A stretch of 64,000 nucleotides of DNA, from the NCBI GenBank assembly GCA_030447445.1, contig JAUJOW010000001.1:152511-216510 (forward strand). Direction: 5' to 3'. Shown here one piece after another: positions 1-6,675 of this stretch (within the stretch, counting starts at the first letter, position 1; every line of letters begins with the position of its first letter). The position numbers and the translations under genes are program-made. This stretch comes from Acidimicrobiales bacterium. Its GTDB lineage: Bacteria; Actinomycetota; Acidimicrobiia; Acidimicrobiales; Iamiaceae. Below the pieces are notes generated by a model, which was not told the origin of the DNA, ran no database searches, and worked only from the letters and a program-made list of their open reading frames with translations.

Positions 1-102
1 GGAGGCGACTGGGGCGGAGGTGGAGGCGACTGGGGCGGAGGTGGAGGCGACTGGGGTGGCGGCGGTGACTGGGGCGGCGGCTTCGGGGGAGGTGACTGGT
101 AG
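1..102 (+). CDS. C-terminal end of a Gly/Trp-rich-tailed membrane protein (partial; TPM/DUF2207-like tail)
   Basis: Frame 1 reads GGDWGGGGGDWGGGGGDWGGGGDWGGGFGGGDW-stop; similar Gly-rich tail to the DUF2207-like protein ending at 26010. Confidence 0.5.
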   Translation, partial: GGDWGGGGGDWGGGGGDWGGGGDWGGGFGGGDW

Positions 103-160
103 CGGCCTCGCCGTCGAGAGATCGTCCGGAGCGGGCAGTGACGAGCTGGCGTCAGGCGGG

Positions 161-790
161 TCACGTGCGGTCGTCGTCTCGGGCCGCGTCAACCGTGGCG
201 AGGGTCAGGTCCGTCCATGCCGTGAGGGCTCGATCATCATCGATGCCGAGTGGCGGGGAGCCGAAGGTCCAGGCCGTGCGACGCAGGGCGACAAGCGGGC
301 CCAGGACGAGGACGGCGGCTGCCTCCGGGTCCTTGACCTCGGGCGCGAGGGCTGCGATGAGGCTGGCGGCGGTGCGATAGCTGAGGTCGACGATGTCGTT
401 CTTGACCTCGACGGTGCGGTCGGTCATGCGTTGGCCGTCATGTTCGAGCACGCTGGTGAGGTCCTTCAGGCGGTCCATCTCGTCGAGGAACCATCGTCCG
501 AGACCCGAGATGATGCGCCGTAGCAGCGCTCGGTCCGCTCCGATGGCGCCGGCGAGGTCCAGTTCGCTGATCTGAGCCGCCCCGGTGGCGGCGCGGTCGA
601 GGTGCGTTCGCACGGCTGCCTCGAGCAGCGCGTGCTTGCTGGGGAAGTGCTTGTAGAGAGCACCGCGTCGGGGTTGGAGACCGACCGCAGCCTCGATGTC
701 GCCGACTGCGGTGGCTCGGAAACCGCGCTCGGCGAACAGCCGCATGCCCTCCTCGAGGAGTCGCTGGCGCGTCGGTGCGGGATCGGCCAT
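161..790 (-). CDS. TetR family transcriptional regulator
   Basis: N-terminal HTH RQRLLEEGMRLFAERGFRATAVGDIEAAVGLQPRRGALYKHFPSKHALLEAAV. Confidence 0.9.
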   Translation of the reverse strand: MADPAPTRQRLLEEGMRLFAERGFRATAVGDIEAAVGLQPRRGALYKHFPSKHALLEAAVRTHLDRAATGAAQISELDLAGAIGADRALLRRIISGLGRWFLDEMDRLKDLTSVLEHDGQRMTDRTVEVKNDIVDLSYRTAASLIAALAPEVKDPEAAAVLVLGPLVALRRTAWTFGSPPLGIDDDRALTAWTDLTLATVDAARDDDRT

Positions 791-799
791 GCTAGGAGG

Positions 800-815
800 G
801 TAATCGACCGATTAC
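800..815. promoter_or_regulatory. Probable TetR operator, perfect 16-bp palindrome GTAATCG-AC-CGATTAC
   Basis: Inverted repeat just upstream of the TetR gene and between it and the divergent gene. Confidence 0.65.
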
Positions 816-833
816 CGCAGGAGGGTCCTCCCG

Positions 834-1354
834 TTGGTCGCCAAGCTCCGAATCGTCGACCCAACCCGCCCTCCCGGCCTGATCGTCCGCGCCTATGCCG
901 CCTTGAGCGCGACACGCTTCGCCCGATTCATCTCGCGCCATGTCAACTGGAAGCTCGACCCGATCCTCTTGCGAGCCAGTCGGGGCCGCCTCGCCACGAC
1001 ACTCGTGTTCCCGACCGCCGTACTCGAGACCCGCGAGGCGAGGAGCGGCGCCCGACGACGCAACGCCATCATCTACTTCCACGACGGAGACCGGGTCACG
1101 ATCGCCGCATCGAACGCCGGTAGCTCCCGGCACCCGGCCTGGTACCACAACCTTCGAGCGCATCCGGACGTCACCTTCGCGGGGATCCGATGCGGGCGAC
1201 GGTGGTGGAAAACGAGGCTGAGCAGGCGAGGTTGTGGGTACTCGCCGATCGTGTCTTCCCAGCCTTCGCGAGCTATCGACGCGACGCGGCGAAGGTGAAT
1301 CGAACGATCCCGATCGTCCAGCTCACCCAACGCCAGTCAGACTCGGTCCGATAG
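834..1354 (+). pseudogene. Deazaflavin-dependent nitroreductase (Ddn/DUF385-like) with a frameshift near 1185-1192
   Basis: Frame 834 gives ...AIIYFHDGDRVTIAASNAGSSRHPAWYHNLRAHPDVTFAGI; conserved C-terminus MRATVVENEAEQARLWVLADRVFPAFASYRRDAAKVNRTIPIVQLTQRQ is in another frame. Confidence 0.75.
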
Positions 1355-1481
1355 AAGAGCCGCGCCGGGAATCGGACCTCGGAACAGACGACGACTGAGG
1401 CCGGCAGGGATCACAGCAAGGGAACTCGGCTTCGTACGTTGTTGCAGGGAGTGCACGTGCGCGTCATGACGCGCCTGCCGG

Positions 1482-1521
1482 AGGCGGCGCCGGGAATCGA
1501 ACCCGGGTACAGGGCTTTGCA
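1482..1521 (-). tRNA. 3' half of a tRNA-Cys-like sequence (TGCAAA-GCCCT-GTAC-CCGGG-TTCGATT-CCCGG-CGCCGCC-T)
   Basis: Perfect T-arm; acceptor strand complementary to the 5' half at 2380-2386; U73 discriminator and GCA anticodon typical of tRNA-Cys. Confidence 0.55.
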
Positions 1522-2351
1522 GAACCGTTCTGGACCCGAGAAACTCCCGGGTCAGCGCTCCTTTCTAGCAGAACGGGGAGCGAAAAGGGAGCAGCCGGGG
1601 AGCGGAGTCACGGCGTGTAGCGGTCAAGGACAGCGCTGCCGAAGCGCTCGAGTCCACGCTCTCGACTCGAACCCATTGGCGTCTCCTGGTCAAGGCGACC
1701 TTTCGCAAACCGAGCGCTCGATCGATCCAAGTAAGAGCGCTCCTTCTCCACTAGCGACACGGTCGCGTTCGCTGACAGCTTCGACCTGCCCGTGCGATGG
1801 TCCTTCTCTCCTACGTGTCCGAAGCACGCCCACGGGCGCCGACCACGGCAGACCCCTGTCTGCCGACTGCGCAAACGATCTGAGACGGCTCCTGACCGTG
1901 ATCGCTCGCGCCGCCGAGCATCGTGCCAACGTCGATCAGCGCTTGCGGCGTTCGACCACCAGACCACGCGCGCTCCCACGGAAGGGTGGTGCTCACTGCC
2001 AACGGGGCGCGGGTTCGCTCGACGAGCCCGCGTGATCGTCCGATAGAAGAACTGCGCTCGGACCTCGGAACAGACGACGACTGAGGCCCAGTCACAGCAG
2101 ACTCGGTCCGGATAGAAGAGCTGGAGGCGCCGGGAATCGGACCTCGGAACAGACGACGACGAAAAGGGAGGCCGGCAGTCAGATCACAGCTGAAGGGAAC
2201 TCGACCTCGAACCCATTTGCGTTCGGGTACGTTGTTGCAGGGAGTGCACGACTCGCCCGTGCGATGGACGTCGCCCACCGGAGGCGCGCCGGCGACGATC
2301 GAGACGGCCTCGACCGGATCGGCGCACCGGAGCATCGTGCCAACGTCGATC

Positions 2352-2386
2352 AGCCCTAGCGGCCTTCGCCACTCGGCCACGCCGCC
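2352..2386 (-). tRNA. 5' half of a tRNA-Cys-like sequence (GGCGGCG-TG-GCCGAGTGGCGAAGGC-...-AGGGCT)
   Basis: Acceptor GGCGGCG pairs 7/7 with the distant 3' half, AGGGC pairs 5/5 with GCCCT; D-arm GCCGAGTGGCGAAGGC. Confidence 0.5.
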
Positions 2387-2431
2387 GGGAACGGTGAACC
2401 CTAGCGCCAGCACCGGGGCGTCCACCGGTGG

Positions 2432-2845
2432 TCAGGTCACGCAGAGCACACTGTCGAGGCCGCTCACGGTGAAGAGGCGGCGCAACTCCGGCGGCGGGTC
2501 ACGGAACTCGATGTCGCCACGAGCGGCCACCGCTCGCCGGTGGGCGCCGATGAAGACACCGAGGGCGGTGGAGTCACAGAACGTCACCCCGGACAGGTCG
2601 ATGACGAGATGCGCACGCCCCCCTCCGATCTGATCGGCCAGACAGGAGCGCAACTGCGGGACCGAGGCCAAGTCCAGATCACCGCTCACCCGAACCAGAA
2701 CCGGGCTGTCGTCGTGGTCGGTGACCTCGATCCGCAGGTCGGGCGTCTTGGCCCAGGGGTTGGAGCGGAGCAGGCGCACCAGCGTCCACCGTGCCCGACC
2801 CGGCCGCAGTCGAAACGGGCGGCCCCCGACGACGGCGCCCACCAA
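2432..2845 (-). CDS. STAS-domain anti-sigma factor antagonist (start uncertain)
   Basis: LVRVSGDLDLASVPQLRSCLADQI...HLVIDLSGVTFCDSTALGVFIGAHRRA. Confidence 0.85.
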   Translation of the reverse strand: MVGAVVGGRPFRLRPGRARWTLVRLLRSNPWAKTPDLRIEVTDHDDSPVLVRVSGDLDLASVPQLRSCLADQIGGGRAHLVIDLSGVTFCDSTALGVFIGAHRRAVAARGDIEFRDPPPELRRLFTVSGLDSVLCVT

Positions 2846-2874
2846 CCCGACAAATGTTGACAGCGACAGATGCG

Positions 2875-3500
2875 ATGATCACATTCCAGAATGTGATCGT
2901 TGAGCCGGGGGCGGACGCCGACCTGTCGGTCGAGGCACTCGCCGAGGCCAGCGGGACCAGCGTGCGGACGATCCGCTGGTACCAGTCCGAGGGCCTGCCC
3001 CCCCGAGCGCCGTGGTCGGGAGGCCCGCTATGGCGCTGCTCACCTCGAGCGCCTCCAGCTGGTGGCCGAGAGCTGCAGCGACGAGGCCTCCGGCTGAGCG
3101 CCATCGCCGAGTTGCTGCGGCGCTCGCCGTCGGCTTCGGCGGCGGACTGGCTCGGGCTGAGCGAGGCCATCGAGCAGCCGTGGGGCGGCGACCGGGCCGA
3201 GCTGCTCTCCGAAGAGGAGCTGGCCCAGCGGGTCGAGCCCAGCCCGGTGGAGGACTACGTGGCCGCCGGGCTCGTCGAGCGACGTGACGACACCGTCCCC
3301 GTCGTCTACCTCGTCCCGAGTCCCGGGCTCCTCGACGTGGCCGTGTCCTGGACCGCCGCCGCCCTCGACCTCGACGCCGCCGCCCGCTTGGCCGACCTCC
3401 TGGCCGGCCATGCGGGCCATGGCCGACGACCTGGTGGCGCGGTTCACCGAGGAGGTCAGCCTGCGACGGCTGGCCGGCGAGGGACCGGGCGGTCCTGCTC
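2875..3500 (+). pseudogene. MerR family regulator remnant, several frameshifts
   Basis: LSVEALAEASGTSVRTIRWYQSEGLPP, then ERRGREARYGAAHLERLQLVAE in another frame, then LQRRGLRLSAIAELLRRSPSA, then ADDLVARFTEEVSLRRLAGEGP in another frame. Confidence 0.7.
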
Positions 3501-4596
3501 TTCGGCAACGGGCCCCTCGCCGAACCGTCGATCCCCGACCTTCCCGGCCTCGACCGCTTCGCTGGCACCATGTTCCACTCCGCCGCCTGGCTGGCCGACC
3601 ACGACCTCGGCGGCGAGCGGGTGGCGGTGATCGGCACCGGCGCTTCGGCCATCCAGTTCGTGCCCCGGATCCAGCCGACCGTGGCGTCACTGACCGTGTT
3701 CCAACGCACCGCCCCGTTGGTCCTCCCCCACCGGAACCGACGCATCACTCGCGGCGAGCGGGCCCTCTACCGTCGGGTGCCGGCCGCCCAACGGTTCGTG
3801 CGGGGCCTCGTCTACTGGAGCCGCGAACTGTTCGCCGGCGCCTTGCTGCGCAACTCCGAGAAGTCCCTCGGCAAGCTCGAGCAGGTGGCCCGCAAGCACC
3901 TCCAGGACGGCATCCCCGACCCGGCGCTGCGGGCCAAGGTCACGCCCGAGTACACACCGGGCTGCAAGCGGCTGCTGCCCTCCAACGACTGGTACCCGGC
4001 GTTGGCCGCCGACAACGTCGACGTCGTCACCGACAAGATCGTGGAGGTGACCGAGACGGGCGTGCTCACCGCCGACGGCACGCAGCACCCCGTCGACACC
4101 ATCATCTTCGGCACCGGCTTCCACGTCATCGGCAACCCCGTCGCCGATCGCATCAAGGGCGTCGACGGCCGCACGCTGGCCGAGCACTGGGCGATGTCGG
4201 GGATGAGCGCCTACCTCGGCACCACCGTGCCCGCCTTCCCCAACCTGTTCCTGTTGGCCGGCCCCAACACCGGGATCGCCCACACCTCCCTCGTGGTCAC
4301 GATCGAGGCCCAGGTGCGCTACGTCGTCGACGCCCTCCGGCGCATGGCCGAGGTGGGCGCCGGCACCGTCGAGGTGCGACGCCCCGTCTTCGACGCCTGG
4401 ACCGAGGAGATGCTCAACAAGGCGGCGCCCACCGTCTGGAACTCCGGGGGTTGTGCCAGTTGGTACCTCGACGACGCCGGCCGCAACCCCGTGCTCTGGC
4501 CCGACTACACGTTCCGTTTCGCCCGCCGCACCCCGGCGCTTCCGCCCCGCCGACTACCAGCTCCTCGCCGCCGTCCACCCGAAGGACGCCACCTGA
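3500..4596 (+). pseudogene. Flavin-containing (Baeyer-Villiger type) monooxygenase, N-terminal FAD-binding part missing, C-terminal frameshift
   Basis: GNGPLAEPSIPDLPGLDRFAGTMFHSAAW...GERVAVIGTGASAIQFVPRIQP...VDTIIFGTGFH; no N-terminal GxGxxG; end reads YQLLAAVHPKDAT in a shifted frame. Confidence 0.75.
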
Positions 4597-4765
4597 TGGC
4601 CGTCGAGCTGGCCGGCGCCACCACCCTCGTCACCTGAGCGGGCCGCGGCATCGGCCGGGCCACCGCGCTGGCCTTCGCCGGGCGTGGTGCCACGGTGGCT
4701 GCGGCTCGACTGGCGTCGGTCCCGTGTCGGGTCAGCGCCGTACTCGTGCGCGTCGGCCTCCGCTG
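4596..4765 (+). pseudogene. Short-chain dehydrogenase fragment with in-frame nonsense codon
   Basis: MAVELAGATTLVT-stop-AGRGIGRATALAFAGRGATVAAARL: TGA replaces the Gly codon of the TGxxxGxG motif. Confidence 0.65.
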
Positions 4766-4812
4766 ATAGGGAGCGATCCACCACCGTCGAGTTGCTACAG
4801 TGGCGGGCCCAC

Positions 4813-4888
4813 GCGGACGTGGCTCAGCTGGTAGAGCATCACCTTGCCAAGGTGAGGGTCGCGGGTTCGAATCCCGTCGTCCGCTCCA
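4813..4888 (+). tRNA. tRNA-Gly(GCC), CCA encoded
   Basis: GCGGACG...TTGCCAA anticodon loop...GCGGGTTCGAATCCCGT-CGTCCGC-T-CCA cloverleaf. Confidence 0.95.
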
Positions 4889-4921
4889 GAAGTGCTGGTC
4901 TGGCCCTTCCGAAGGGTCTGA

Positions 4922-5935
4922 CGCGAGTATCCGAACCGGCGGTCGAGCCAGCACCACCCACGCGCCATCGAGGCCGAGGCCCTCGCCAAGCGCTACGGCG
5001 AGGTCGAGGCCGTCCGTGGCGCCTCGTTCACCGTCGCTCCCGGCGAGGTCTTCGGCTTCCTCGGTCCCAACGGCGCCGGCAAGAGCACGACGATCAACAT
5101 GCTCTGCACGCTGGCGCGTCCCACCTCCGGCACCGCCCGCGTGCACGGCTTCGACGTTGCCGGCGAGCGGGACGACGTCCGCCGGCACCTCGGCGTCGTC
5201 TTTCAGGACCCGACGCTCGACGGCTACCTCACCGCCGAGCAGAACCTCCGCCTGCACGCCGAGCTGTACGGCATCGACGCCGGTGTCATCCGGGCGCGGA
5301 TGCGCCAGATGCTCGAGATGGTCGACCTCTGGGACCGCCGCGACCAGCCGGTCCAGACCTACTCCGGCGGCATGCGACGGCGCCTGGAGATCGCGCGCGG
5401 CCTCATGCACTCGCCACGGGTGCTGTTCCTCGATGAGCCGACCATCGGTCTCGACCCGGACGCGCAGCTCGATCTGGCGCTACATCCGCGCCCTGCAGGA
5501 AGCCGAGGGCACGACGATCTTCATGACCACGCACCACATGGACGAGGCCGACTTCTGCGACCGCATCGCGATCATGGACGGCGGGGACATCGTCGTGCTG
5601 GACACGCCCGAGGCCCTCAAGGCGAGCGTCGGGGCCGATCGGGTGGTGCCGGGCACCGCCGACGACGCGGCCCTGACCGCCCTGCGCGACCGCTTCGTCA
5701 TCGAGGCGACGGCCGCCGGAGGTGGGTGACCTTCCCCGTCGCCGCCGGCGAGGCGTTCGTGCCCCGGTTGTTCGCCGAGCTCGACGTGGCCATCACGTCG
5801 GTGGCGGTGTCGCGACCGACGCTGGACGACGTCTTCATGCGCTACACGGGCCTGACGATGCGGGACGCCGAGACTGCGTCGACGTCGGATCGCGACCGGG
5901 CGATCCTGCGGGTGCTGGCGAGGTCTGGCCGATGA
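4922..5935 (+). pseudogene. ABC transporter ATPase (DrrA/multidrug type), no obvious start codon and internal frameshifts
   Basis: GFLGPNGAGKSTTINML, TYSGGMRRRLEIARGL, LFLDEPTIGLDP; frame switches near 5475 (IWRYIRALQEAEGTTIFMTTHHMDEADFCDRIAIMDGG) and back near 5725. Confidence 0.75.
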
Positions 5936-6675
5936 GCATCGTGGCGTGGCTGCTCCAGCCGTTGCTGTTCCTGCTCGTCCTCGGGCCCGGGCTGCAGACG
6001 CTCTCGGCCGCGTCCACCGACGGCGTGGACCTCACGACGTTCATGTTCCCCGGCGTCATCTGCATGGCGCTCCTGTACAGCGCCATGTTCAGCGCGGCAT
6101 CGCTGGTCTGGGACCGCGAGCTCGGGTTCCTGCGGGAGATGATGGTCGCGCCGGTCCGGCGGTCGTCGATCGTCCTGGGCAAGTGCCTGGGCGGCGTGAC
6201 CATCGCCGTGAGCCAGGGCGTGCTCGTGCTGGCCCTGGCCGGCCTCGTGCACGTGCCCTACGACCCGGTGCTGCTGCTCGGCGTCTTCGGCCTCGAAGTG
6301 CTGATCGCCTTCACGATCACCGCCTTCGGCGTGATGGTCGCCATCTGCATCAAGCAGGCCCGGACGTTCACGAGCGTGATGCAGCTGTTCGTGCTGCCGA
6401 TGATGTTCCTGTCCGGCGCGCTGTACCCGGTCGCCGAGCTGCCCGACTGGCTGCGCCTGCTCAACCGCCTGAACCCGCTGACCTATGTCGTCGACCCGAC
6501 GCGGCGGCTGGTGTTCGACCGCCTGGACATCTCGGAGGCCGCCCGGCACCGGCTCGCCCCCGGCGTCACCTGGTGGGGCTGGCGGGTGCCGTCGTTCGTC
6601 GAGGTGGGGATCGTGCTGGCGCTGGGCCTGGCGATGCTGGCGGTCGCCATCTTCCGGTTCACGCGGACGGAGTGA
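5932..6675 (+). CDS. ABC-2 type transporter permease (N-terminus appears short)
   Basis: MSIVAWLLQPLLFLLVLGPG...FPGVICMALLYSAMFSAASLVWDRELGFLREMMVAPVRR... Confidence 0.85.
   Translation: MSIVAWLLQPLLFLLVLGPGLQTLSAASTDGVDLTTFMFPGVICMALLYSAMFSAASLVWDRELGFLREMMVAPVRRSSIVLGKCLGGVTIAVSQGVLVLALAGLVHVPYDPVLLLGVFGLEVLIAFTITAFGVMVAICIKQARTFTSVMQLFVLPMMFLSGALYPVAELPDWLRLLNRLNPLTYVVDPTRRLVFDRLDISEAARHRLAPGVTWWGWRVPSFVEVGIVLALGLAMLAVAIFRFTRTE

Follow-up and report, generated by a model that had tools for sequence, protein, structure and literature searches.

Two Parts of a tRNA-Cys Gene Beside a STAS-Domain Gene

The window analyzed here, a 64,000-nt stretch of an Acidimicrobiales genome, carries two separated parts of a tRNA-Cys(GCA) gene on its minus strand. 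When compared with the consensus of intact tRNA-Cys genes from related genomes, which served as the reference, the 5' part (2362-2386, minus strand; nt 1-25, comprising the acceptor strand and the D-arm) was identical at 23 of 25 positions and the 3' part (1480-1522, minus strand; nt 32-74) at 43 of 43. The best local scores against tRNA-Cys were 86 for the 3' part and 40 for the 5' part, versus a maximum of 29 in 100 control alignments to other 1151-nt segments of the window. The pattern of the 3' half was matched in 32 of the 41 genomes searched, and most relatives possess an intact tRNA-Cys. An earlier, sequence-only reading had described tRNA-Cys halves here; both sequences are indeed present and the genes of relatives confirm what they are.

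The boundaries that had been given were revised. Homology of the 5' part ended in the D-stem at 2362, not at 2352, and the 3' part began one base earlier than had been thought, at 1522 instead of 1521. Its first base is C32, the exact start of the anticodon loop CTGCAAA. The 5' part differed from the consensus in the D-loop and then ceased to match, the window reading GGCCGCTAGGGCTGATCG where relatives read GGCAAGGGCCTGCAAA. Identity to the tRNA-Cys of relatives was thus lost after nt 25 and regained exactly at nt 32, and nt 26-31 had no homologous counterpart in the two parts. When the parts were joined as first proposed (5' part to 2352, 3' part from 1521), ARAGORN called tRNA-Cys(GCA) but placed the anticodon at position 37, where 34 is normal. 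This agrees with the three extra bases that had been noted between the D- and anticodon stems, which arise because homology ends after the D-stem and nt 26-31 are not homologous. When long introns were allowed, ARAGORN called the locus Leu(caa). Further, the complete (5/5) anticodon-stem pairing of the joined parts may be fortuitous, because the window has 'CGCTAGGGCT' where relatives have the mismatching 'AAGGGCC'. A degenerate repeat copy at 1908-1954 has AGCGC at the position of 'CGCTAGGGCT'.

Upstream of the 5' part, and separated from it by 46 nt, is the end of a STAS-domain gene (2432-2845, minus strand; Pfam STAS_2, 6.3e-21). In four relatives (G002, G003, G010, and G015), a homologue of this gene is the immediate upstream neighbor of the intact tRNA-Cys. 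Downstream of tRNA-Cys, G002, G003, G006, G010, and G013 have a PutA homologue. The window has a PutA homologue 5.7 kb downstream of the locus. Because the STAS/tRNA-Cys gene order, with PutA downstream in several of them, is common to relatives, the locus is the ancestral place of tRNA-Cys, and the STAS gene marks it. Two neighboring stretches carry broken reading frames. At 834-1354, a probable deazaflavin-type nitroreductase, named by eye, reads in two frames (834-1298 and 1190-1354) and is likely a pseudogene. At 2880-3630, a MerR-like and a monooxygenase N-terminal reading are broken across frames, which looks like decay or sequence errors.

A tRNA search of the genome gave 39 matches, none of them Cys. 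No intact tRNA-Cys was found in this assembly, which is 86% complete and consists of 37 contigs; tRNA-Asn and others were likewise missing. Since the genome is incomplete and lacks tRNA-Asn too, the absence of an intact tRNA-Cys is uninformative. A tRNA-Sec is encoded in the genome (L030; G000:C22:13082-13372). A split tmRNA was rejected as an identity of the locus: the Rfam tmRNA match covered the T-arm only, and a separate tmRNA is present elsewhere in the genome.

A Conserved Module Adjoins the tRNA-Cys 3' Part

Directly beside the 3' part lies a conserved module of ~85 nt (1523-1606, minus strand; alignments A1/A2, model R1) that contains three GCTCCC direct repeats, spaced ~11 nt apart in most copies. 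Model R1 detected it in its own genome (E = 9.8e-25) and in G059 (2e-26), G332 (7.8e-27), G116 (9.9e-19), and G040 (1.6e-12). At E<=0.01, matches were found in 25 of 397 genomes of the order, weak matches being included as candidates. The module together with the tRNA part occurs at two places in G059 (88% identity over 124 nt and 81% over 121 nt). Units of the module plus a tRNA-Cys 3' half, with no 5' half before them, were found in G059 (twice), G332/JAHWJH01, G116, G040, G214, and G069. At least six further genomes of the order, none of them a close relative, carry the unit, and twice it stands beside a tyrosine integrase. In phage, plasmid, and viral collections, the only matches were to the tRNA-Cys 3' end, or one chance match within a phage tail gene.

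We read the module as a putative integrase-binding (P) arm of an integrative element; three GCTCCC repeats would fit what is expected of integrase arm-binding sites. The fragment equals the target tRNA at every position between the presumed crossover and the 3' end (43/43, nt 32-74), and beside it stands a conserved, putative attP arm that is common to other elements. This is the composition expected of an att remnant, and the 3' part would then be an att core and a displaced, attR-like fragment.

These solo units also bear on whether the ~830 nt between the parts could be an unrecognized intron, self-splicing or enzymatically spliced, from which a functional tRNA-Cys is made. The joined parts fold like a tRNA that ARAGORN calls Cys, they are the sole tRNA-Cys-like sequence found in the assembly, and the acceptor strands are paired in the predicted full precursor. 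However, the supposed 3' end of the intron is a DNA module that accompanies 3' halves without any 5' half, and its RNA folding was not above that of shuffled sequences, so the module was rejected as a structured RNA. Covariance models of group I and group II introns gave no match at E<=1 in window 1-6000, and both families were rejected for want of a catalytic core. Further, the join carries three extra bases, and nt 26-31 are without homology. A single fold of the trimmed junction, inspected by eye, showed no evident bulge-helix-bulge of the kind found in archaeal/eukaryotic-type tRNA introns. We therefore consider an intron very improbable, and the intron suggested in the sequence-only reading found no support. 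Extremely improbable, in our estimate, is that the bacterium has no tRNA-Cys other than these two parts and splices their transcript in some unknown way, with a former att scar now acting as the intron.

Integrases and Element Ends in Relatives

Tyrosine integrases adjoin the equivalent sites in L115, L116, G040, G035, and G036. L115 encodes a tyrosine integrase (Phage_int_SAM_3, Phage_integrase) along with a helicase (AAA_30) and an HTH gene, and the 3' end of the integrase abuts the tRNA-Cys 3' half. In L116, the order is arm, 3' half, and then integrase homology. G040 and G036 have the integrase directly after an intact tRNA-Cys; in G035 it stands behind a tRNA-Cys 3' half whose first base is at the edge of a contig. 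In G036, the arm and core CTGCAAAGCCCTGTACA lie ~9 kb beyond the intact tRNA-Cys and integrase. G036 thus displays both ends of one element, laid out in the attL/attP/attR manner of integrative elements that target tRNA genes.

In G332 (L166 = C177; L138, L163), two model-detected copies of the arm plus 3' half accompany an intact tRNA-Cys. Such coexistence is the usual state for elements of this kind.

In the window, no integrase or other element gene was found between the two tRNA parts, and no integrase adjoins the site. At the other end, where G036 and G040 have an intact tRNA, only nt 1-25 are left. The window locus is thus a remnant and not an intact element, because the integrase is absent here although it stands beside the equivalent sites.

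Diverged Repeats Between the tRNA Parts

Short diverged repeats, which the first reading had overlooked, form a mosaic over positions 1338-2386. The flank of the 3' half (1338-1457) matches 2098-2250 collinearly at 74%, with perfect blocks of 24 nt and 34 nt. Positions 1875-1969 repeat, in degenerate form, the tRNA 5' half and what comes after it (82% over 95 nt versus 2382-2295). Two degenerate tRNA-Cys 3' ends had also escaped notice, one at 2123-2152 (minus strand; nt 42-71, local score 35) and one at 1359-1387 (minus strand; nt 42-70, local score 33), both above the control maximum of 29. At the latter, 34 nt are identical to the copy at 2127-2160. We read both as probable old att scars, left by earlier or tandem integrations that were followed by deletions.

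A repeat-rich interior may also mislead an assembler. If the contig were a chimera, the true genome would have an intact, restored tRNA-Cys (attL), and its 5' flank would have been misjoined to the attR side through the repeats. The assembly is of metagenome style with the incompleteness and contig number given above, and att repeats break the contigs of relatives: contig C99 of G035 starts exactly at CTGCAAA, and L115 ends 14 nt before CTGCAAA. However, collapse across the shared 43-nt 3' half would yield an intact tRNA and not a broken one, and the divergence of the repeats (74-87%) resembles old decay. We consider a chimera unlikely.

Integration and Decay as the Probable Origin of the Broken Locus

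We conclude, with a probability of roughly 87%, that integrative elements whose attachment site is tRNA-Cys disrupted the native tRNA-Cys(GCA) locus when they integrated there and decayed. Positions 1480-1606 of the window are the arm plus 3'-half unit of such an element. A tRNA broken by a repeat element had been the other option of the sequence-only reading, and it gains support from the recurrence of the arm at solo 3' halves, some of them beside tyrosine integrases; the repeat element would, more specifically, be the att site of an integrative element.

The tyrosine integrase of the element would recombine within the anticodon loop (CTGCAAA), the probable position of crossover. Since attP would bear the 3' half of the tRNA, integration would normally restore the gene by joining the 5' half to the 3' half of the element (attL), and would leave the displaced 3' half behind the arm sequence (attR). 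Later deletion and rearrangement may then have cost the attL side its restored 3' half, the integrase, and most of the element. What was left behind would be the 5' stump and attR, with rearranged remnants of ~840 nt. Such a course requires no splicing. The decay history of the interior, the order of its events included, is conjectural.

Two observations count against a locus broken in this manner: the 86%-complete genome has no intact tRNA-Cys, and the sequence between the parts retains neither an integrase nor any other gene of an element. With no intact copy assembled, the living cell must, if the locus is broken, have a tRNA-Cys outside the assembly. The copy in the window is probably dead.

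Comparison With Known Systems

The mechanism of disruption is an ordinary one. Islander uses the pairing of a tDNA with its fragment as a signature of genomic islands, and the anticodon loop is a common crossover site (PMC4383910). The elements described here resemble such tRNA-targeting islands in the presumed anticodon-loop crossover, the displaced 3' tDNA fragment, and, at related loci, the integrase beside the tRNA (PMC4383910). Unlike those islands, the window has lost the restored tRNA and the integrase and retains the 5' stump, attR, and scars. The interruption also lies near the anticodon loop, as do group I introns of bacterial tRNA genes, but it differs from them: an intron core is lacking, the 5' boundary is in the wrong place, there are extra bases, and the 3' boundary is att-like. 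The locus illustrates how a genome scan may mistake a failed or decayed integration for a tRNA that is split or holds an intron. If the native tRNA-Cys has truly been lost in this strain, the whereabouts of the functional copy becomes a concrete question.

Actinobacterial AICEs such as pSAM2 integrate into the 3' part of a tRNA gene, and tRNA remnants are also noted as sites; tRNA-Cys is not mentioned in the main text of that article (PMC3218068). The present elements resemble AICEs in their actinobacterial host, in a tyrosine integrase beside an HTH (Xis-like) gene, in an attP at the integrase end, and in the use of the 3' part of a tRNA gene for integration (PMC3218068). AICEs have a replication initiator, an FtsK-like translocase, and Int/Xis, whereas only a helicase, an HTH gene, and Int were seen in L115. 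A limited literature search found no description of a tRNA-Cys element family with a GCTCCC-repeat arm, and the integrative elements with this arm at tRNA-Cys in this actinobacterial order are possibly an undescribed family. In G059 (contig C5), HicA/HicB-like toxin-antitoxin genes were recognized by eye (L108, 4953-5366) close to a unit of arm and 3' half and to the C-terminal end of an integrase.
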